Source: Novipirellula artificiosorum (lineage in GTDB: Bacteria > Planctomycetota > Planctomycetia > Pirellulales > Pirellulaceae). From it: a stretch of DNA of 64,000 nucleotides. Both the position numbers and the translations under genes were made by a program. Positions 11,821 through 21,760 of this stretch are shown one piece after another; the first letter of the stretch is position 1, and every line of letters begins with the position of its first letter. The notes beneath the pieces are model-generated. The model ran no database searches and was not told the origin of the DNA. It saw only the letters and a program-made list of their open reading frames with translations. The stretch spans positions 216,698 to 280,697 of the forward strand of contig NZ_SJPV01000003.1 of the NCBI RefSeq assembly GCF_007860135.1. Reading direction: 5' to 3'.

Positions 11821-12447
11821 ATGAGTTTCCTGGCAACTCGTGTCCTGTTTTTTGGTTTCGTTCTTTGTTCCGCAATGAGTTTATGCGATGGGGCTGATCC
11901 GAAGCTTGACCCACACTTAGAACCACTCGCATGGATGATTGGTGATTGGAATCCTGTTAACGCCTCAGATAGTCTCCTTCCGTCCGGGTATGTGATATGG
12001 AAAGTAAACCCAATGAAAATCGGCGTTGCTGAGTCGGGAAAGGCGATTGCTATCGACTATGAATACAAATACACGATGCAACAGCTTCCCCTTCCCTTCC
12101 ATACGTATACCCCAACCGTACACGTGCTTCTTTGTTGGGATGAAGAATCAGGGATGATTACTGCTACGGTTCGAGTAGGAGGCGTTACTCAATTTAAGTC
12201 CCGCAAATCTAAGTCTTATTCAGGAATCAGAGCGAACAATTTGACATTGTACCATCTTGAAGCGAAGGATCCCGGATCTTGGACCGCAATCATTCCAGAT
12301 ACTGACAATGAATTTCCTCACGCAATTCGGCGAATGGGAGAAGGGGATCTGCGAATTCGTTTCGAACAAGTCGACTATTTGGATGCTGAATTTTCCCGAA
12401 GTCCCAACGAAGGCGAACTCAAGGCATTGGATGTCGATATTTTTTAG
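11821..12447 (+). CDS. Secreted lipocalin-like protein, 208 aa
   Basis: Signal peptide MSFLATRVLFFGFVLCSAM with cleavage probably before GADP. The mature start (LEPLAWMIGDWNP) has the 'hydrophobic-x-x-G-x-W' opening seen in lipocalin-like proteins that assess losses or binding (DUF1579-type folds), and beta-strand-rich sequence follows. Two smaller proteins downstream (13473-13928 and 14143-14643) open the same way. Probably exported to the periplasm. Ligand and function unknown; the fold assignment is by pattern only. Confidence 0.6.
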   Translation: MSFLATRVLFFGFVLCSAMSLCDGADPKLDPHLEPLAWMIGDWNPVNASDSLLPSGYVIWKVNPMKIGVAESGKAIAIDYEYKYTMQQLPLPFHTYTPTVHVLLCWDEESGMITATVRVGGVTQFKSRKSKSYSGIRANNLTLYHLEAKDPGSWTAIIPDTDNEFPHAIRRMGEGDLRIRFEQVDYLDAEFSRSPNEGELKALDVDIF

Positions 12448-12602
12448 GCGGTCACGGTCATGTGTTGAGACCCTCGCTAAAAATGCCCAACGCTCCGGAT
12501 CTAACAAACACGATCTTCATGACAGTTGTCAGGCGAGTGGGACGCGGGAAATGGAACTTTGCCGACGAAATTGTATCCGTCATTGCGGTCGGGATACACC
12601 GA

Positions 12603-12690
12603 TGTCGATTGCTCGCAAATATCGGTTTTTGCTGTGTCTAATGCTCGCCAAAGTTTATGACCGGAATGCTCGCCAAAGTTTATGACCGGA
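12603..12690 (+). mobile_element. Tandem 25-base repeat, possible insertion-sequence end
   Basis: Two perfect, directly adjacent 25-base copies (12641-12665 and 12666-12690) begin ATGCTCGCCAAAGTTTATGA. A diverged third version, ATTGCTCGCAAATATCGG, lies upstream from 12608, after TGTCG at 12603. Multiple direct repeats at a terminus starting TG are typical of IS21-family ends, where the transposase binds them. No istA/istB genes are nearby, so this would be a solo end. The IS21 assignment is inference. Confidence 0.4.
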
Positions 12691-13023
12691 CGAGGCTGGT
12701 TTTCGAAGACTTTTGGCGTTATGGCTTGGTCAACAGCGAAAAGCAGTTCACTCGCTGCAAACCACGGTCGTGACGGATCTTTTTGTTCTGGGCGCGATTT
12801 AGCACGCGCCTGCCAAGTGTCTCATTACCGTCTCACCCAGATTCTCAACCTATCGTGCCTCGCTCCCGACATCCAAGAGCAACTCCTTCATCTGGCGCGG
12901 TATTCGAAGGGCCGAGCCCCCTTCACCGAGCGAGAAGTCCGCCCCATCGCAGGCGAGCCGGACTGGGACAAGCAGAGAACGCTATTCGCCAAATTGATCG
13001 ATCAAAACGATCGCACCCACTAG
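12682..13023 (+). pseudogene. Truncated copy of recombinase-associated HTH gene
   Basis: From about 12790 to the stop at 13023 the DNA matches 6120-6344 closely (about 90% by eye). The encoded peptide (RLTQILNLSCLAPDIQEQLL, then EREVRPIAGEPDWDKQR) is the C-terminal HTH part of the cassette protein at 5928-6344. The first 35 codons are unrelated and derive from the preceding repeat region. No recombinase or DUF2924 gene precedes it. It is therefore a 3' relic of a second cassette, probably truncated by the insertion-like sequence immediately upstream. An expressed short protein cannot be excluded because the frame is open. Confidence 0.75.
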
Positions 13024-13472
13024 GCCCAACGTCAACGTCCAGTTCGTTGAGTTCGTGGGCGTGAGAGTGTTCTCGTGCATCATCCTCTTGCAACTCAATC
13101 GAAGCGATCTTCCCGATACAGTGTGGCGGATCGTCGCAACCAAGCGAATGGTCCCGGTTTCATGGCTGTGGAAATTTGCACCAGGGACAGCAGTGGCAAT
13201 ACAATGCAACACTGAGCTGCGAAAACGGTGCAACCGGTTAGCCAGTTTTCAGCACAATCCGAACCAGTGAGAATACACAAAGAGGCGATCTGACCTCCCG
13301 TTGAGAACACTCAATTCAACCACTGAGCATCAGTGGGGGTCACCCTCGGTACCGAATGGGAAACCAATGTGAATGAGTCCCTTCATGGGTATGCTCGCTG
13401 GTACTTCCGGTGATACGCAAGTTGTTTGATTTGGTCAGAGAATTGACTTTCCATTCTTAATGAGGTGTTACG
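13024..13472 (+). other. Intergenic region, 449 bases
   Basis: Follows the HTH relic. No family-like protein in any frame. Short open frames on the minus strand (13.0-13.3 kb) have no recognisable content. An AATGAGGTG ribosome-site-like stretch precedes the next gene at 13473. Confidence 0.4.
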
Positions 13473-13928
13473 ATGAAACGTGCTGCGAAATTGATTGCCT
13501 TGACGCTGGCTCTATTTCCATTCTGTTACTCCACTGCGGGCGCCGAACCGGATGTTCCAGATCCGAGCCCGTGGTCGTTCCTTGAAGGGAGTTGGAGCTT
13601 GGAACAATCGGACGGAGCGAAAAATGTAATGTCAATCGAGCTTAACGAAGCCAAGAACTGCTACGTGGCTTCATCCGACAAATTCCAGGGCACATTCGGG
13701 ATCGACCAATCCAGTGACCACCAACTACTTGCTTTGGGCTACCACCCGGGCAAAGGATACTCAGTTGGACACTTCAAGCGACTGTCGGCCACCGTCGTCG
13801 CAGGGAAGTTTTTGTTTTTCGACAACGAGGGAAACAAGACCGAACACACTGGAAAATGGGAGAAAACGGATTACGGATACTCGTATCTGGTTGATGAGGC
13901 AGACCTGTGGAAGTGGCACCGACAATGA
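13473..13928 (+). CDS. Small secreted protein, lipocalin-like, 151 aa
   Basis: Signal peptide MKRAAKLIALTLALFPFCY with likely cleavage after AGA. The mature protein opens PWSFLEGSWSLEQ, an 'L-x-G-x-W' lipocalin-like start, and continues with beta-rich sequence (TFGIDQSS, KGYSVGHFKR, GKFLFFDNEGNKT, HTGKWEKTDYGY). GAGGTGTTACG precedes the ATG. The neighbour at 14143 is of the same type, suggesting local duplication of an exported beta-barrel family. Function unknown. Confidence 0.7.
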   Translation: MKRAAKLIALTLALFPFCYSTAGAEPDVPDPSPWSFLEGSWSLEQSDGAKNVMSIELNEAKNCYVASSDKFQGTFGIDQSSDHQLLALGYHPGKGYSVGHFKRLSATVVAGKFLFFDNEGNKTEHTGKWEKTDYGYSYLVDEADLWKWHRQ

Positions 13929-14142
13929 GAATCGATAGATTCCTGGCGATCAACGATCCATCGATTGGACCGGAGTGCCAGTGCCCATAGTCCTCTTTTC
14001 CAAGGGGTGGACGAGTAACGTTCCTTCAATGGACGATCGCGTGGCGAACACCGCGTGATCGTTGTCGTCATTTGCTGACATCACGCTTGGCTCACAATAT
14101 TCTAAAAAGCGACTATTACCCATTTTCTTGACAGGAGACTGA

Positions 14143-14643
14143 ATGATGAGGCACCTGCTTTTCTCGATGTTTACTTTCGCGACGATCCTAATGTTTTCTC
14201 CACAATGCTGGGCCGAAATCGACTCGCAAAATGCGTTGACTAGGATTGGTGACTTCATGGTTGGCACTTGGGTCCCCGCCGATCAACAGGACGAAAACGG
14301 GCCGCGCAAACATGTCTACGCATGGGCCCTAGACAGGAAGTTTGTTCGCACGAACGGCGAACTGGATCCGGCGCCCTGGCATGGCTACATGGGTGTGGAT
14401 CTTAAGTATAATCAAGTCGGTTGGTGGGGCTTTTTCGCCGATGGTACGTCTGGTGTGATCTATCTCACCAAGTTCACCGAGAAGGAATGGATTTTTGAGG
14501 GTGACGACTTTGGCCCCAATGGAAAGTTCCGGCGCAAAGTCACCGTGAAAATCCCCGCTGATGGCAAGATCAGTTCCACGATTGAAGACACCCTGGACGG
14601 AGAAACAACGGTCGTTCAACAAGACTGGGTACGCTACCGTTGA
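14143..14643 (+). CDS. Small secreted protein, lipocalin/DUF1579-like, 166 aa
   Basis: Signal peptide MMRHLLFSMFTFATILMFS with cleavage near CWA. Mature start RIGDFMVGTWVPAD, then KHVYAWALDRKFVRTNGEL and GYMGVDLKYNQVGWWGFFADG, ending in beta strands with WIFEGDDFGPNG. This order (G.W, then W.LD..FV, then G..G.D) resembles DUF1579-like proteins that fold as lipocalins. GACAGGAGACTGA precedes the ATG, a good ribosome site. Predicted periplasmic. Substrate unknown. Confidence 0.72.
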   Translation: MMRHLLFSMFTFATILMFSPQCWAEIDSQNALTRIGDFMVGTWVPADQQDENGPRKHVYAWALDRKFVRTNGELDPAPWHGYMGVDLKYNQVGWWGFFADGTSGVIYLTKFTEKEWIFEGDDFGPNGKFRRKVTVKIPADGKISSTIEDTLDGETTVVQQDWVRYR

Positions 14644-15566: not shown

Positions 15567-15866
15567 GTGGCGGCCGTGCCGTTTCTGAATTGGCGGTAAC
15601 GTTCGCTACCTTCGCCGACGGACCAAACCGAACTCACTATACGTCAAATCTTCTGTGCGAGGTGCTCTCGCATGAACACCAACAGATTCTTTATCGGGTC
15701 GCGGCGTTGCTCACTTAGCGACTGACGCAGTGCATTGCGTAGCCGATTCGATGGCCGGCGAAGTCGGCTTCGTAGCCAGTGTGGACAGGCAATTCCCGCA
15801 CGGGGAGGGCGAGTGGGACAAAGTCTCGGAATTCTGGGCGACAGGTGTGACTTAGCCGCTTGAGGC
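15567..15866 (+). other. Intergenic region before recombinase operon, 300 bases
   Basis: Holds no recognised gene. Presumably carries the promoter of the recombinase-RepB-repeat-protein operon, but no clear -35/-10 pair was found. The true recombinase start may lie after 15867, extending this gap. Confidence 0.35.
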
Positions 15867-17444
15867 ATGTGGGGTGCTTCTCGTAACTGTCTTGTTGGTA
15901 CCACGAGCGTTGGGTTCGTGGTTACGACAGAGACTTTTACAGATGGAGCATTCATCTTGGATAACTGGTGGGAAATCGGTGTGCCCGATCCGGATGCGCC
16001 TGCGCTCGTTCGAGCGGTGGCGTATTACCGGCACTCGGCACAAGACCGACAAGAAAACTCGATACCGATTCAACAGGATCAGGTTCGGGCGTGGGCGATG
16101 GAACACGGCGTCGAGATCATTCGTGAGTTCTGTGACGCAGGACGATCGGGGCTGAATTCCGAAGGACGACCGGCCTTCACCGAAATGATGGAAGAGTGGA
16201 TCGCTAAACGCGATGACTTTGAATACGTTTTGTGTTTGGATGTCAGTCGTTGGGGGCGGTTTCAAGACATTGACTTGTCGGCGCAGTTCTCGGCGATCTG
16301 CAAGAAAAACGGTAAGCAGGTTATCTACACGACGATTGGCAAGCCGAAAGAGAACGATCCGCTCTATCCGGTTTACGTTCAGTTCGAGCGGTTCCGCGCT
16401 GCTCAGTACAGTCGCGAATTGAGTGACAAGGTTTGGCGCGGCTGCGTAAAAATAGCCGAGCAAGGCTACCTGGCCGGCGGTCCGCCGCCATACGGTTTGT
16501 CGCGGCTATTGCTCGATGAGAAGCGCGAACCGCTTCATGTGTTGGAGGCTGGCCAGCACAAGGGCATTCAAAATCAACGGGTGACGCTGGTCGAAGGGCC
16601 GCCAGAAGAAGTCGCCGTGATTCGCCGGATTTTCAACGAGTTCGTTGAGGAGGGGTTCTCGGAATATAGGATTGCCGAGGGACTCAACGATGACGGTATT
16701 CCTTCTCCGAGAGGCGGGCGGTGGGGCGCCGGCAGTGTGATCGCTCGACTGCGAAAAGAGAAGTACGCCGGCACGATGGTTTACAACCAAACCTCCGGAA
16801 AACTGAAAACGCCAAAGCATCCAAACCCGCCGGAGCAATGGGTTCGGACACCGGAAGCTTTTACGGGCGTCATCGACATCGAACTGTACTTGCGTGCTCA
16901 GGAAATCCTTGAGAAACGTAAACAGCGATACGACCCGGACTACATGCTGCGGCAGCTTGACTCACTGTACCGATCGCACGGCATGGTGCGGCCTGGATTG
17001 TTGCGTCTCAATGATGACTTGCCATCATCGGGATCGTACGGGCGACAATTTGGCTCGCTCGACCAGGCATTCCAAAAACTCTTCGATGGTGAACGGGACA
17101 AGGCTCGCGAGACGGTTCAGGACCAGATTCGAAGCCATGTACCTGAAACGCTGGCGTACTCCGACTTCTTGGTGCTCGACCAGAAGTTGACCGTTTCGAT
17201 TCAGCCCGCCGTTCCGATACCGCATGGCTACGAATCGTACTGGCCACTTCGCCGAGATACAAGGCCGGTCATCGACATGACGCTCGGCGTCCTTCTTTCC
17301 GAACCCGCAGACTTCAAGATTCTCGGGTTCATTGCCTTGCCTCGATTCGGATCGGACTCCAAGCCGCTGCGCTTCACCAGCTCATCGACCCGCACCGAAC
17401 TGTTCGGACGGACCGATTTGAACTTTCTTCAACAACTCCTTTAA
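15867..17444 (+). CDS. Large serine recombinase (second family)
   Basis: 525 aa if ATG 15867 is used; GTG starts at 15918 or 15981 are equally possible, since conserved sequence begins at ALVRAVAYYRHSAQD. Catalytic-domain features: YYRHSAQD with the probable nucleophile serine, SIPIQQDQV, FCDAGRSGL, RPAF, VLCLDVSRWGRFQD and the FERFRAAQYSRELSDKVWRG helix. A recombinase domain (FNEFVEEGFSEYRIAEGLNDDGIPSP, then KYAGTMVYNQ) follows. The zinc ribbon of the 4396-5931 protein was not seen, so the two belong to different subfamilies. First gene of an operon: 12 bases separate it from the RepB-like gene. Known in other bacteria as a recombinase next to paired ParB/RepB-like proteins; target site not identified. 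Confidence 0.9.
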   Translation: MWGASRNCLVGTTSVGFVVTTETFTDGAFILDNWWEIGVPDPDAPALVRAVAYYRHSAQDRQENSIPIQQDQVRAWAMEHGVEIIREFCDAGRSGLNSEGRPAFTEMMEEWIAKRDDFEYVLCLDVSRWGRFQDIDLSAQFSAICKKNGKQVIYTTIGKPKENDPLYPVYVQFERFRAAQYSRELSDKVWRGCVKIAEQGYLAGGPPPYGLSRLLLDEKREPLHVLEAGQHKGIQNQRVTLVEGPPEEVAVIRRIFNEFVEEGFSEYRIAEGLNDDGIPSPRGGRWGAGSVIARLRKEKYAGTMVYNQTSGKLKTPKHPNPPEQWVRTPEAFTGVIDIELYLRAQEILEKRKQRYDPDYMLRQLDSLYRSHGMVRPGLLRLNDDLPSSGSYGRQFGSLDQAFQKLFDGERDKARETVQDQIRSHVPETLAYSDFLVLDQKLTVSIQPAVPIPHGYESYWPLRRDTRPVIDMTLGVLLSEPADFKILGFIALPRFGSDSKPLRFTSSSTRTELFGRTDLNFLQQLL

Positions 17445-17456
17445 CGAAAGAACAAC

Positions 17457-18362
17457 ATGGAACCACTCACCAACATCTGCTCGATCGCCAACCGTAGGTA
17501 CGAAGAGGTACCGATCGAGAAAGTGAAAGTCATCAATTCGCGGAATCGCGACAAAGAACAGTTCGAGATGAATGTCGAAAGTATCGAGGGCGTCGGGCTG
17601 ATGAAGCCGATCCGGGTTAACGACAAGTTTCTCGACACGACCGGGTTTTACGAATTGATTTGCGGTGAGGGTCGGCTATTGGCCCACAAGCAGCTCGCCA
17701 AGACGCACGTTCCGGCCGAAGTCGTGACATGCACTCGGAAAGAGGCACTGCTGCAATCGCTGATCGAGAACATCGCCCGAACGAAACCGGGCAGTATGGA
17801 TTTCGCTCGGGAGCTGAAGCGTTTGCACGACGAGGGTTGGGAATACAAACGGATCGCCCAGATCGCTTGTAAATCGGAACACTACATTCGTGACTACATC
17901 CGGTTGGTCGAACAGGGGGAAGAGCGTTTGATCCAAGGGGTCGAGAATGGCATTTTTCCGATCAAGTTCGCGATTCAGGTTTCGTCGACGGAGGATTCTC
18001 AGATCCAAAACGTTTTGATGGATGCGTTCGATGCGGGCCTGGTCACGACGAACAACTTTGGCCAAGCCCGGCGAATCATCTCGGCAAGGGCGAAGCAATC
18101 AAAGAAATCGCCGGCTAGCCGAGACTACACCGTTGTCCAATTACGACAGGACATCGCCGAGACAACGCGTGTAAAAACATCGTACGTCCGTGAGGCGAAA
18201 ACGAAAGAGAACCGGTTTATGACGCTGTTGTCCGGCGTGAACATGCTGTTTAAGGACGGGGGACTGGTCGAGCTACTCAAACAGCAGCAGCTCGACAAGC
18301 GTCCGGAGCTTTCTGGCGACTTTCAATTTGATCCATCCGCCAATTCGGAGGTGTCATCATGA
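17457..18362 (+). CDS. ParB/RepB-like protein 1, 301 aa
   Basis: N-terminal ParB domain at about residues 15-110: VPIEKVKVINSRNRDKEQF, then GLMKPIRVND, YELICGEGRLLAHKQLAKTH (the GE.R..A motif) and LIENIARTKPGSMDFA (the E..R box, here ENIART). A helix-turn-helix segment follows (YKRIAQIACKSEHYIRDYIR). The C-terminal part resembles the plasmid RepB family. ParB-type proteins bind DNA and often CTP. There is no ParA homologue nearby, so classical partition is doubtful. It ends in an ATGA overlap with the next RepB-like gene. Probably works with the recombinase, for instance as an accessory DNA-bridging factor. Confidence 0.87.
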   Translation: MEPLTNICSIANRRYEEVPIEKVKVINSRNRDKEQFEMNVESIEGVGLMKPIRVNDKFLDTTGFYELICGEGRLLAHKQLAKTHVPAEVVTCTRKEALLQSLIENIARTKPGSMDFARELKRLHDEGWEYKRIAQIACKSEHYIRDYIRLVEQGEERLIQGVENGIFPIKFAIQVSSTEDSQIQNVLMDAFDAGLVTTNNFGQARRIISARAKQSKKSPASRDYTVVQLRQDIAETTRVKTSYVREAKTKENRFMTLLSGVNMLFKDGGLVELLKQQQLDKRPELSGDFQFDPSANSEVSS

Positions 18363-19216
18363 GTGCCAACGGACAGAACGGTAAACCGGTTCACGGCATC
18401 GACGTCTCGATCGTCAAACTGGTGCCACGAAACGAACGCAAGGTCGCCAAAAAGTATCGACAACGGATCGAGGCAAGTCTGCGAGCTGTAGGGTTGATCG
18501 ATCCGCTGATTGTCTATCCGCTCGAGGATGGATACGAGATTCTCGACGGAGCACTTCGCTATCGGATTCTGTTGGACCTGGGGATTGAGACGGTGCCGTG
18601 CTTGGTTCACAATACCCGCGACGGATTCACTGGCAACCGGATGGTCAACCAATTGAGCGCGTCGCAGGAAATGCGAATGCTTCGCAAGTCGCTTGAAGAG
18701 CTCGATGAGAAGACGATTGCGAATGCTCTTGGTATGCAAAGCATTGGTCACCGGCTCAACAAAGGCCTTCTCGCCAAACTTCATCCCGAGGTGGTGAAGG
18801 CGTTCAATGGTAATAAGATTAACTTGCAAACCGCTCGCGAGTTGGTCAACGTCAAACAGGACCGCCAGCACGAGATCCTCAAACTAATGCAGTCGTGCAA
18901 CGACTATAGCACGACGTTCGCACGGGGGCTGGTGCTGAAGACGCCGGCGGGGAAGCGGGCGAATACGAACGCGACGAGGACGCCGTGGACACAGGCCGAC
19001 GAAAAGAAGAGTCAACTACTCAAGAAGCTACGAGAAGCCGAACAGCAACAGAATTTCTATTCGGGGCTTTATCGCCAGTACACGACAAACTTGTTGAAAC
19101 TCATCATTTACGTCCGCACGTTACTCAATAATGTCGAGGTGAAAACGTATCTGCTGGCTCATCATGCTGAGCTGGCGCAGGTCTTTGAAGAAATCCTCGA
19201 GAGCACGGAGGGTTGA
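18359..19216 (+). CDS. ParB/RepB-like protein 2, 285 aa
   Basis: Diverged partner of the preceding gene, overlapping it by four bases. The ParB-like domain shows VPRNERKVAKKYRQRIEASL, then GLIDPLIVYPLEDGYEILDG and ALRYRILLDLGIETVPCLV (G...RY..L..LG). A central helical part (RMLRKSLEELDEKTIANALG) may be the HTH. The tail carries a coiled-coil-like segment LLKKLREAEQQQNF. Likely forms a complex with ParB/RepB-like protein 1. The last codons contain GGAGGG, which doubles as the ribosome site for the repeat protein that starts at 19218, so expression of the two is coupled. Confidence 0.85.
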   Translation: MSANGQNGKPVHGIDVSIVKLVPRNERKVAKKYRQRIEASLRAVGLIDPLIVYPLEDGYEILDGALRYRILLDLGIETVPCLVHNTRDGFTGNRMVNQLSASQEMRMLRKSLEELDEKTIANALGMQSIGHRLNKGLLAKLHPEVVKAFNGNKINLQTARELVNVKQDRQHEILKLMQSCNDYSTTFARGLVLKTPAGKRANTNATRTPWTQADEKKSQLLKKLREAEQQQNFYSGLYRQYTTNLLKLIIYVRTLLNNVEVKTYLLAHHAELAQVFEEILESTEG

Positions 19217-19217
19217 C

Positions 19218-20783
19218 ATGCCGCGAGAGATTTGGACAAAGGACAAAATCATTGCCCGACTGCAGAAATGGCATGACGAGGGTGTTCCCGTTGGCAAGTT
19301 GTGGGCGCAGGATTCTGGCGTAACTTCGAGATCATCGGCCGTGTTCGGGTCGTGGCGGCAAGCGTTGGAGGCTGCCGGCTTCGCGTCGGTACGTGAACGC
19401 TGGTCTCGCAAACGCATCCTATGCGAGCTAAAAGAGCGACACGAGGGCAAAATCGTGGACGATAGCAAGCTGGTTTGTGCTGCGATTCGACACTTCGGTT
19501 CGATACGCAAAGCACTGGCCGCCGCAGGCTTGCCATGCAAAACGAAACCGCCCGCTCACCCCGATTGGACAAGACAAACGGCGATCAACGCCATTCGCAA
19601 GTATGTCGAAGACGGTCATAACATACGATTGACGCGCCGTAAAGATCCGGAGCTCTATGCTGCGGCAAAGCGACTGTTCGGCAATTGGAGGGTCGCACGA
19701 TCGGCCGCCGGCTTTCCGTTTCAGGCAAAAGTCACGTATTCGGAGGCGGAGGTCAAACGCCGAATCATGCGTTTGCACCGAGAAGGTCAGTCACTATCGA
19801 ACATGCGAGATAGGGACTTCGATCTCCATCGTTCAGCGTATAGGTGGTTCGGTTCCTGGGGAGAGGCAGTGCGATCGGTCGGCTTGGAATGGACGATGCA
19901 TCGCCGTTGGTCCAAGAGGAAGGTGATTGAGGCGATTCGCAAACGCAATGCCCAGGGTCACGTGTTGTGTCGAACATGGCGTGAAGAAAAATCCTTGTTT
20001 CGAGCCGCCGTAAATTGGTTCGGAAACTGGGGAACCGCTTTAGAGGCGGCTGGGTTTGAGCCAATTCATCGAGAACGATGGACACAGCAACGAGTGATCG
20101 AGCGATTGAAGGCGTGGCGTGAACGATCGACGGATACAAGCCTCTGTGAATCGGAACCGAACCTAGCCGATGCAGCGATACGGTTTTTCGGCGGATTGGA
20201 CAAAGCCTTTGAGGAAGCGGACATCGAGCCGTCACCGCGATATTGGACGGATGTACGCGTGATTGCCGAAATACAAGAGCGATATGTGAATGGCAAGCCA
20301 AAGCATATTCAAGGGTTGGGTGATATACGCCTTGCCAATGCCGCAAAGCGACGGTTTGGATCTTGGGCTAAAGCCGTCAAGGCTGCGGGCCTTGCTGATC
20401 GAATTCCAATCTCCAAACCTCTCAAGCGCTGGACAAGGCAGAAGGTCATTGAAGCAATAATACTCGCGCGCAGTGAAGGTATTCGTCTTACCGGTATCAG
20501 CAAGAGCGATCAGAGTCTCTACAACGCGGCCAAAACCCACTTCGGAACTTGGCACGCGGCGATGATCGCTGCTGGCATTCCGCCTTCTCGGCGCCAATGG
20601 AGCAAGCGAGTCATCATCCAAGAGATCCAGCAGCGACAACGCGACGGCCAATCGCTCGTTTGCAGACACCCCGACAACACCAACATGGCCGCAGCGGCCC
20701 AGCGACATTTCGGATCCTGGACCGCCGCGTTATCCGCCGCGGGCATCCAAACCAAACAAACAACACGGAAGGTGGCCTCATGA
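19218..20783 (+). CDS. Nine-repeat protein of homing-endonuclease-associated (FGSW) repeats, 521 aa
   Basis: Start MPREIWTKDK at 19218, right after GGAGGGTTGAC. The whole protein is nine tandem modules of about 55-60 residues. Each has W(S/T)...VI..I......G, a variable middle, and a (A)A...FG(S/N)W..AL.AAG end, for example AAVNWFGNWGTALEAAG and AAAQRHFGSWTAALSAAG. This matches the homing endonuclease-associated repeat (HNH_repeat, conserved FGSW). No HNH, GIY-YIG or other catalytic motif was found, so it is a repeat-only protein, probably DNA-binding. Modules 4 and 6 are most diverged (for example FFGGLDKAFEEA). The stop overlaps the next repeat gene by four bases. Function not established. 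Confidence 0.85.
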   Translation: MPREIWTKDKIIARLQKWHDEGVPVGKLWAQDSGVTSRSSAVFGSWRQALEAAGFASVRERWSRKRILCELKERHEGKIVDDSKLVCAAIRHFGSIRKALAAAGLPCKTKPPAHPDWTRQTAINAIRKYVEDGHNIRLTRRKDPELYAAAKRLFGNWRVARSAAGFPFQAKVTYSEAEVKRRIMRLHREGQSLSNMRDRDFDLHRSAYRWFGSWGEAVRSVGLEWTMHRRWSKRKVIEAIRKRNAQGHVLCRTWREEKSLFRAAVNWFGNWGTALEAAGFEPIHRERWTQQRVIERLKAWRERSTDTSLCESEPNLADAAIRFFGGLDKAFEEADIEPSPRYWTDVRVIAEIQERYVNGKPKHIQGLGDIRLANAAKRRFGSWAKAVKAAGLADRIPISKPLKRWTRQKVIEAIILARSEGIRLTGISKSDQSLYNAAKTHFGTWHAAMIAAGIPPSRRQWSKRVIIQEIQQRQRDGQSLVCRHPDNTNMAAAAQRHFGSWTAALSAAGIQTKQTTRKVAS

Positions 20784-21319
20784 TTCGCGAAACCATCATC
20801 CGCAACATCGTCAAGCGTGACGTCGCCAGAGAGAGTTTGCTCGAAGATGACGTCCGCCGCGACGATGAACTCCTCCACGCCGCCGCGTGCGACGAGTTCG
20901 GTGCGTGGACAACGGCACTCACTTACGCAGGCGTCAACGTACACCACGTTGGCCCACGTCGCGACCTCACGCAAGCCCGTGTAGAACAACAACTCCGCCG
21001 ATTGTGTACGACAGGCTACGACCTTGGGGCCGTGGTGAACCGAAGTCGGGATCGCGCGCTCTATGAAGCGGCCCTCCGCTACCACGGCACCTGGCGAAAG
21101 GCACTCACGGCCGCCGGAATCAACCTAACGAACGTCTCCCGCCGCCGTCCGCCGCACATGGATCGCAACACAATTTTGCACTGGATCAGAGAGCGTCATG
21201 CGACTGGGCAGAGCATGACATTCTCGAGTGTTTGCTTAGAAAATCGGGACGTCGCGTTGGCGATCAAACGCACATTTGGAAGTTGGAAAGCAGCAATCGT
21301 AGCGGCCAACGTAGAGTGA
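20780..21319 (+). CDS. Three-repeat FGSW protein, 179 aa
   Basis: Starts in the ATGA overlap with the nine-repeat gene. Three modules of the same repeat: the first ends AACDEFGAWTTALTYAG, the second AALRYHGTWRKALTAAG, the third AIKRTFGSWKAAIVAA. The first lacks the leading tryptophan (it begins MIRETIIRNIVKRD), so the gene could be a separated continuation of the upstream array, although the frame difference and start context suggest two coupled products. No catalytic domain. Last gene of the recombinase operon. Confidence 0.8.
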   Translation: MIRETIIRNIVKRDVARESLLEDDVRRDDELLHAAACDEFGAWTTALTYAGVNVHHVGPRRDLTQARVEQQLRRLCTTGYDLGAVVNRSRDRALYEAALRYHGTWRKALTAAGINLTNVSRRRPPHMDRNTILHWIRERHATGQSMTFSSVCLENRDVALAIKRTFGSWKAAIVAANVE

Positions 21320-21760
21320 CCAGCGTATTTGAATCGGGAGGATGCTATCGATGGCAGCGTCTATGTCACGCCGTGCGTCCGATAATCACTGCTATGTGGC
21401 GAGTATTTGGCGATTAATGCGGTTCTACCAACGGAGGCAGTACTCAGGCGTTTCCGTGTGAACATGGAGCGTTCACTACTGAACATTGCACCGGACTAAG
21501 GTTGTTCACACGAAATCTCTCCCAAATCATTACCGTCGCTGGCTTTTCCCGATTGCACAAAACAGAGCCCCACCGCAATTGAGTTGTGCACGGGAGAGCG
21601 ATTTCAACTCGATAGACACGAATCCCCAAAATATGCAGTGACAATTGGTTGAGAATGCCATTTTCGCTTTTGATCATCAGATACTGAGATCTCACAAGCT
21701 GAAAAATCACATCGCCGGCAACTCGGATCAACATCGTCTTCTGTCGATCGGGTTACACAA
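21320..21760 (+). other. Intergenic region with dispersed repeat, 441 bases
   Basis: Between the repeat-protein operon and the convergent propeller gene. Contains the repeat copy at 21556-21604. No gene-like frame; the minus-strand frame at 21.4-21.7 kb has no recognisable content. No strong terminator hairpin was found. Confidence 0.4.
21556..21604 (+). repeat. Dispersed repeat, copy 2
   Basis: CACAAAACAGAG, then CAATTGAGTTGTGCACGGG and AGAGCGATT: the same order and spacing as at 6492-6540. A CCAAATCATTACCG stretch about 50 bases upstream is shared with the copy near 28779. Located just after the FGSW-repeat operon. Confidence 0.65.

Follow-up and report, generated by a model that had tools for sequence, protein, structure and literature searches.

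A five-gene unit joining a large serine recombinase, a ParB-like pair and FGSW-repeat proteins in Novipirellula artificiosorum is very probably a mobile element

What is the function of an operon in which a recombinase, two ParB-like proteins and two proteins built of homing-endonuclease-associated repeats stand side by side? The question is raised by a locus in a stretch of 64,000 nucleotides from the 9.2-Mb genome of Novipirellula artificiosorum (contig NZ_SJPV01000003.1, positions 216,698 to 280,697; hereafter the window, in whose numbering positions are given), which holds five forward-strand genes separated by 12 bases, an ATGA overlap, 1 base and another ATGA overlap. An earlier note on this DNA had described these genes, with the same positions and spacings, as a probable single operon, and our analysis confirmed the coordinates and supported the operon; near-identical intergenic spacings are kept in five related elements. 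This order of genes is found again in other genera, which we take as more than chance. We propose that the five-gene unit is, with little doubt, a mobile element of approximately 5.7 kb (15813 to approximately 21505), and, with moderate confidence as the best explanation of the whole, that the recombinase and the ParB pair would mobilise this element while the repeat arrays would read DNA.

Profile searches assigned the five proteins to families. The recombinase (called from ATG 15867 to 17444, 525 amino acids) matched the Pfam families Resolvase (E = 8.5e-16) and Recombinase (6.6e-21), and the two ParB-like proteins, ParB1 (17457 to 18362) and ParB2 (18359 to 19216), matched ParB_N (9e-9 and 8.4e-9), with RepB (PF07506) above the cut-off on ParB2 (7.5e-9) and below it on ParB1 (4.9e-5). 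HNH_repeat (PF18780) matched repeat protein 1 (19218 to 20783, nine FGSW repeats) at 1e-36 and repeat protein 2 (20780 to 21319, three FGSW repeats) at 1.8e-10, and it was the only family above the cut-off on either; Pfam models of HNH nucleases gave no match at E up to 1, in agreement with the note's statement that the repeats come without a nuclease. The two proteins thus have the repeat unit of the homing-endonuclease-associated PF18780 proteins, but have no HNH domain, and such arrays reach up to 11 units per protein after the recombinase operon.

The recombinase has the catalytic serine domain, the Recombinase domain and the active-site residues of a large serine recombinase, and Y53, R55, S57, D125, R128 and R131 (525-residue numbering) were invariant in 32 aligned rows. 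Its true start is probably TTG 15957, and 15867 to 15956 is probably non-coding, because relatives such as L142 and L144 begin at the equivalent codon, giving 495 amino acids, and because residues 1–32 of the structure model have a predicted local distance difference test (pLDDT) below 50. Residues 44–357 of the model, whose mean pLDDT is 77.5, matched serine integrases including those of SPbeta and Bxb1 with Z of 15.6–17.3; domains, catalytic residues and this fold are accordingly those of large serine integrases (SPbeta YokA, Bxb1, PhiC31), which, with their recombination directionality factors, are among the nearest known systems. A C-terminal domain with a zinc ribbon and a coiled coil is typical of large serine recombinases. 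In contrast to these integrases, the window's recombinase has no Cys after residue 193 and, therefore, no zinc ribbon; its C-terminus consists of one FGSW repeat unit and a beta-rich domain, and it has ParB-like and repeat proteins as partners.

The C-terminal block is homologous to the FGSW repeat unit. Residues approximately 351–405 (16917 to 17081) aligned in register with the repeat profile at hhalign probabilities of 94.6 and 95.3 (single-comparison E of 7e-8 and 2e-8), and of 56 control block comparisons the only ones to approach this involved overlapping blocks; no non-overlapping block exceeded 27%. The model places helices at 357–371, 376–381, 388–395 and 398–404, with F395-G396-S397 at the turn equivalent to that of the repeat, and its pLDDT is 81–92 in this stretch. 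PF18780 was matched, at E up to 1 and without a given match position, by 13 of 32 recombinases (best 1.9e-4), the window's not being among them, and HTH_62 (Recombinase-like) by 15 of the 32 at the same limit (best 3.6e-5). Because one repeat unit forms part of the recombinase C-terminus, the module has such repeats of its own, and the view of them as a mere addition to a recombinase-RepB-RepB set is not quite right. In the beta-rich part, residues 404–525 matched the homing endonuclease I-Ssp6803I at Z 8.8 (3.2 Å over 111 residues), which is borderline, no nuclease or catalytic motif was seen in the domain, and its best match by sequence among solved structures, at E 0.076, was unrelated.

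The repeat proteins themselves are a conserved feature of one clade. The association that the note described is real in the nearest relatives, where one to four of them directly follow ParB2 in all 25 readable loci, and it fades at greater distance. A scan of genomes of the same taxonomic order found repeats straight after ParB2 in 15 of 15 loci with at least 53% recombinase identity and both ParB genes (the window, L038, L140–L144 and L146–L153; a stop interrupts the recombinase of L151, and L152 is truncated by the end of its contig). The other 10 loci came from a scan of named genomes covering the best 80 of at least 586 ParB1 relatives: at ParB1 identity of 56% or more it gave 19 loci, one of which (L215) is cut by its contig inside ParB2, and repeats were present in all 18 readable ones, 8 of them on contigs already counted. 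The four closest viral contigs also bear repeat proteins. Seven further loci are without one or both ParB genes; repeats occur in four of these (L008, L145, L156 and L158) and not in L154, L155 and L157. When 46 recombinases were placed in a tree, the 15 rows with repeats (L145 included, L151 left out for length) fell on one side of one branch (support 79/77), and the repeat-bearing state needs one change, with none of 500 shuffles as low. The number of units per protein varies: 9+3, 8+3, 5+3, 6+6+4, 3, 4 and up to 2+4+6+11.

Arrays of the same repeat also occur elsewhere, where we take them, by eye, to have an HNH-like C-terminus or a zinc-finger-like N-terminus or to stand alone. The HNH-like form was seen in L093–L095, elsewhere in the order, and the zinc-finger-like form in other planctomycetes (L098, L099, L100, L102, L104, L107 and L108); the latter are perhaps sequence-specific regulators. 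Among 392 genomes, just 2 of the 12 that bear arrays (G000 and G369) had a match to the trio of recombinase, ParB1 and ParB2. The earlier note had made its reading depend on the repeat proteins keeping company with the recombinase and RepB genes and on neighbours shared between related genomes; the arrays at large are mostly found without the trio, whereas in the nearest clade the trio has arrays at every readable locus, and the neighbours outside the five genes differ between most pairs of loci.

The trio order, a recombinase-RepB-RepB association that the note had described as seen elsewhere, recurs in Planctomycetes, Proteobacteria, plasmids and viral contigs. A scan of the phylum, in which 16 of 25 places beyond the window's own were fetched, leaving aside nine whose E was 1.7e-10 or weaker, gave the order in 14 of the 16 (L052 and L053 are without it), and four plasmid or phage records also have it. 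In the named-genome scan, 77 of 80 loci have a recombinase no more than 600 bp upstream of ParB1 (of the others, two are at a contig edge and one has none) and 76 have ParB2 no more than 600 bp downstream (two at a contig edge, two without it); the records include Alphaproteobacteria, Burkholderiales, Desulfobacterales, Verrucomicrobia, Kiritimatiellaeota and Holophagaceae, and among the matches listed Stieleria, Rubripirellula, Rhodopirellula and Pirellula have the same genes. Both partners were present in 70 of 80 viral-contig loci, six of the others ending and three beginning at a contig edge and one having no recombinase. ParB1 lay within 5 kb of an end in 49 of 60 viral contigs with a length of 15 kb or more (after exclusion of 15 similar and 5 shorter ones), compared with 21.7 expected by random placement; this would fit an integration module, although trimming by virus finders could contribute. 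The note's suggestion of an integration module is plausible. By eye, an AAA-type ATPase gene follows ParB2 in L045 and L049 and a repeat protein in L153.

It would be very improbable, in our view, that the genes are the partition or maintenance cassette of a former plasmid in which the ParB pair and the recombinase keep multimers resolved. Both ParB-like proteins match plasmid RepB/ParB families, and ParB2 relatives occur in 74 plasmid records, not all with a recombinase. However, none of the five genes was a ParA in profile searches, as the note had also judged when it called partition unlikely, the trio resides on chromosomes, plasmids and viral contigs alike, and four plasmid regions had mixed neighbours (Tn7-like, conjugation, toxin-antitoxin and DnaB-like helicase genes) with no annotated ParA or replication initiator. 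The rhizobial and other plasmid trios, annotated as "recombinase family protein" and "plasmid partitioning protein RepB C-terminal domain-containing protein", have the same three-gene order and an alignable recombinase C-terminal region, but the four examined are without a repeat protein.

Mobility of the unit is indicated by its occurrence at different places, in several copies and with a patchy distribution, a recombinase match being present in 33 of 326 genomes of the order with distant recombinases included. The left end (15813 to 15905, forward strand) is an approximately 90-bp block kept in nine elements (the window, L008, L140–L145 and L154), whose comparison makes it sharp. In most of the nine it has the sequence (G)TGTGACAAAGTCTC and two GTGTGAC repeats 32 bp apart (the first copy in the window is GTGGGAC), after which comes TTGAGG-18-TAACT with promoter-like spacing, a motif that a promoter scan did not match under the rule of the tool. 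The DNA outside this end differs among the nine with two exceptions: L140, L142 and L145 have in common the remnant of an older element, a decayed recombinase start, and the window and L141, of one genus, have 8 bp in common. A sequence resembling an old right end (71–72% identity over approximately 100 bp) lies upstream of L141. Because pieces of older elements adjoin these four elements upstream, the elements seem, from their sequences, to accrete head to tail.

At the other end, approximately 170 bp after the last repeat gene (right-end block, 21335 to 21505 on the forward strand, end uncertain by approximately 10 bp) are common to L141 and the relics L361 and L363 and contain a perfect dyad, GTGAAC-7-GTTCAC, at 21458 to 21476; the block was not found in G564, G638 and G695. 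A right end at 21334, taken from L008, was dropped because L361, L363 and L141 extend the element by a further 170 bp. L008 is a second copy in the window's own genome, 93% and 95% identical in DNA at the two ends, in which the recombinase match does not go beyond residue 336 and neither ParB gene is present, and pieces of repeat protein 2 lie elsewhere in this genome (C3:376 kb, C3:390 kb, C3:704 kb and C33). The 64-kb window contains no tRNA genes. Most pairs of loci have different flanking genes, and some genes are shared, such as a rhodanese gene (named by eye) upstream of L008, L154 and L177; this pattern would be expected if a mobile element prefers certain surroundings.

Within the element, the ParB pair seems, from its motifs, to be conserved as one CTPase-competent and one probably hydrolysis-deficient subunit. 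Both proteins align with the Spo0J and Noc structures. ParB1 keeps R29, R31, C69, G70, G72, R73, E104 and N105 (motifs R29, R31, CGEGR 69–73 and EN 104–105) in 44 of 44 rows, and ParB2 keeps G64 and R67 in 34 of 34; we take these to be the cytidine triphosphate (CTP)-binding and hydrolysis positions of ParB and Noc. At the position of the Glu of the EN motif, by our reading of gapped alignments to the Spo0J and Noc structures, ParB2 has G, Y, S, F, P, C or W in all 34 rows, and the next Asn is kept in 31. Chromosomal and plasmid ParB and Noc are CTP-dependent clamps, the binding and hydrolysis motifs of which ParB1 retains; unlike them, the present proteins are two paralogues, one of which is without the catalytic Glu, with no ParA and with a recombinase as the partner.

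The repeat unit is predicted to be a four-helix, helix-turn-helix (HTH)-like fold: in the model of repeat protein 2 (mean pLDDT 88), every unit comprises four helices, and the FGSW turn links the third to the fourth. HNH_repeat is tabled, in a 2021 paper, among repeat families modelled without a known structure (PMC8078820).

Of the five proteins, repeat protein 1 changes fastest, and repeat protein 2 is the more conserved of the two repeat proteins. In the 15 pairs of six elements, mean identity was 0.855 for the recombinase, 0.797 for ParB1, 0.823 for ParB2, 0.454 for repeat protein 1 and 0.668 for repeat protein 2. Between the window and L008, the flanks of repeat protein 1 are 93–95% identical and the synonymous divergence (dS) is 0.267 for the recombinase part and 0.118 for repeat protein 2, whereas the silent sites of repeat protein 1 itself are saturated (proportion of differing silent sites, pS, 0.76). 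Between L141 and L142, dS around repeat protein 1 is 0.86, 0.80, 0.81 and 0.57, and pS within it is 0.76. Because its silent sites are saturated between much more similar flanks, repeat protein 1 looks as if it were exchanged as a block. Block exchange of one subunit with the partners kept constant is a habit of specificity subunits, and by this analogy repeat protein 1 would behave as one.

These observations bear on the possibility, which we regard as fairly unlikely, that the recombinase and the ParB pair alone move the element and that the repeat proteins, without a use in recombination, regulate or silence the operon or its neighbours. The trio has no repeat proteins in most lineages; at 46–48% ParB1 identity in the named-genome scan, L218–L220 are without repeats, an array stands 0.8 kb beyond ParB2 in L221, and L222 is truncated. 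Some arrays elsewhere also carry the N-terminal zinc-finger-like segment, which, by eye, resembles the MucR/ROS type, and this type is typical of regulators. However, the strict gene order, the coupled translation and the homology of the recombinase C-terminus to the repeat point to a part for the repeat proteins in the recombinase's own reaction, and fast exchange of repeat protein 1 would be odd for a regulator of a conserved promoter.

In the mechanism we favour, in which the arrays take part in recombination, the large serine recombinase would cut and join DNA and would bind the element ends via its own C-terminal repeat unit, ParB1 and ParB2 would probably load at the ends as a CTP-gated clamp that orders the synapse, and the arrays would serve as extra DNA readers. 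The constant three-repeat protein would most likely read the ends of the element, and repeat protein 1, with its variable set of many repeats, would most likely read and select the target DNA. This division of labour is put forward tentatively, and a targeting step by the variable array is to be considered equally doubtful. Still more speculative is the possibility that an array of recombinase-type HTH-like units reads a long DNA stretch and recruits the recombinase and the ParB clamp, so that a swap of the array retargets the element. If true, the element would be a naturally occurring serine integrase whose target is programmed by a protein and can be changed. Serine integrases are valued for clean one-way insertion, yet are tied to fixed sites, and because the recombinase's putative DNA-reading unit also occurs in separate arrays that are exchanged fast, retargeting through a change of array can be tested directly. 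In the widespread trio, a ParB CTPase pair would moreover serve a purpose other than partition. A full-text literature search gave no paper that we recognised as a description of the trio or the element, although publications outside that search may describe them.

Several results weigh against this explanation. The best structural matches of the repeat unit were mostly TetR-type DNA-binding domains and were weak (Z of 4.3 and below), a Foldseek search of the unit gave no match at 0.001, and repeat protein 1 found no relative by sequence among solved structures (best E 1.1). In three other pairs of elements, pS was highest in repeat protein 1 (0.72–0.77), but that of the ParB genes was 0.56–0.72, and between L143 and L144 the silent-site value of ParB2 (0.88) exceeded that of repeat protein 1 (0.67). 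The mapping of element ends, which the note had proposed, gave a sharp end on the left; on the right, the approximate end near 21505 was seen only within the window's genus. No empty site was found, and insertion or excision of the element was not seen. Terminal repeats were not consistent in 64 comparisons, one of which (an inverted piece of the window, 24–48) beat all 40 shuffles, and a search of the right end for the left-end sequence gave nothing consistent. Support for the repeat-bearing clade is modest. L039, from outside the order, has no repeat protein at 54% recombinase and 48% ParB1 identity, nor have L040 (49% recombinase identity) and L042 (45%), likewise from outside the order. 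Because of L039, a rule that repeats occur at all loci above 50% recombinase identity was dropped, and our confidence in the explanation as a whole was slightly lowered.

The note had also raised interference, and a defence module in which the arrays and the ParB clamp recognise invading DNA would be improbable. Seven of ten upstream neighbours, chosen by eye, match PADLOC models, namely DrmD at L038 (6.6e-268), HmaA at L149 (9.2e-183), PDC-S14 at L142 (9.3e-113), PDC-S11 at L151 (4.3e-108), DrmB at L145 (6e-80) and, more weakly, a restriction enzyme at L140 (6.8e-11) among them. However, these genes vary by locus and are not part of the element, and at E up to 1 the only PADLOC match among the five proteins was a weak one, of a methyltransferase model to ParB2 (3.3e-4), which leaves interference without direct support, and random control regions also hold a DrmD-type match (2.1e-193), so that enrichment of defence neighbours is not established. 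The comparison used 44 of 63 upstream and 44 of 75 control open reading frames, with short, partial and spurious ones dropped and the control region L183 contributing none of the 44 controls; DrmD-type proteins numbered 3 versus 1 and matching models 134 versus 84, and enrichment of defence cargo is not claimed. Taken together, partition and PADLOC-listed defence are not supported.

As to the surroundings of the element, defence-type genes lie within 8 kb upstream of L038, L140, L142, L145, L147, L149 and L151, being McrBC-like by eye at L140 and L147. Plasmids of Sinorhizobium were considered as a source of an empty site and were of no use: they showed a RepB-like gene with no recombinase next to it. 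A rhodanese-like gene directly adjoins the element or its remnant upstream in two genera (L008:3513-3983, L154:12825-13295 and L196:5739-6209), and it is possibly a preferred site or a travelling companion. In most loci, CAT or CATC stands, by eye, just before the left end, as either a target preference or a few extra bases of the element. In L171, L172 and L175, the first 35–50 bp of the left end occur solo with the element absent, and these copies could be decayed ends or target-like sites. Upstream of the element in the window (11821 to 14643) are several small secreted-looking proteins, one of which resembles, by eye, a gene near a relic in L009.

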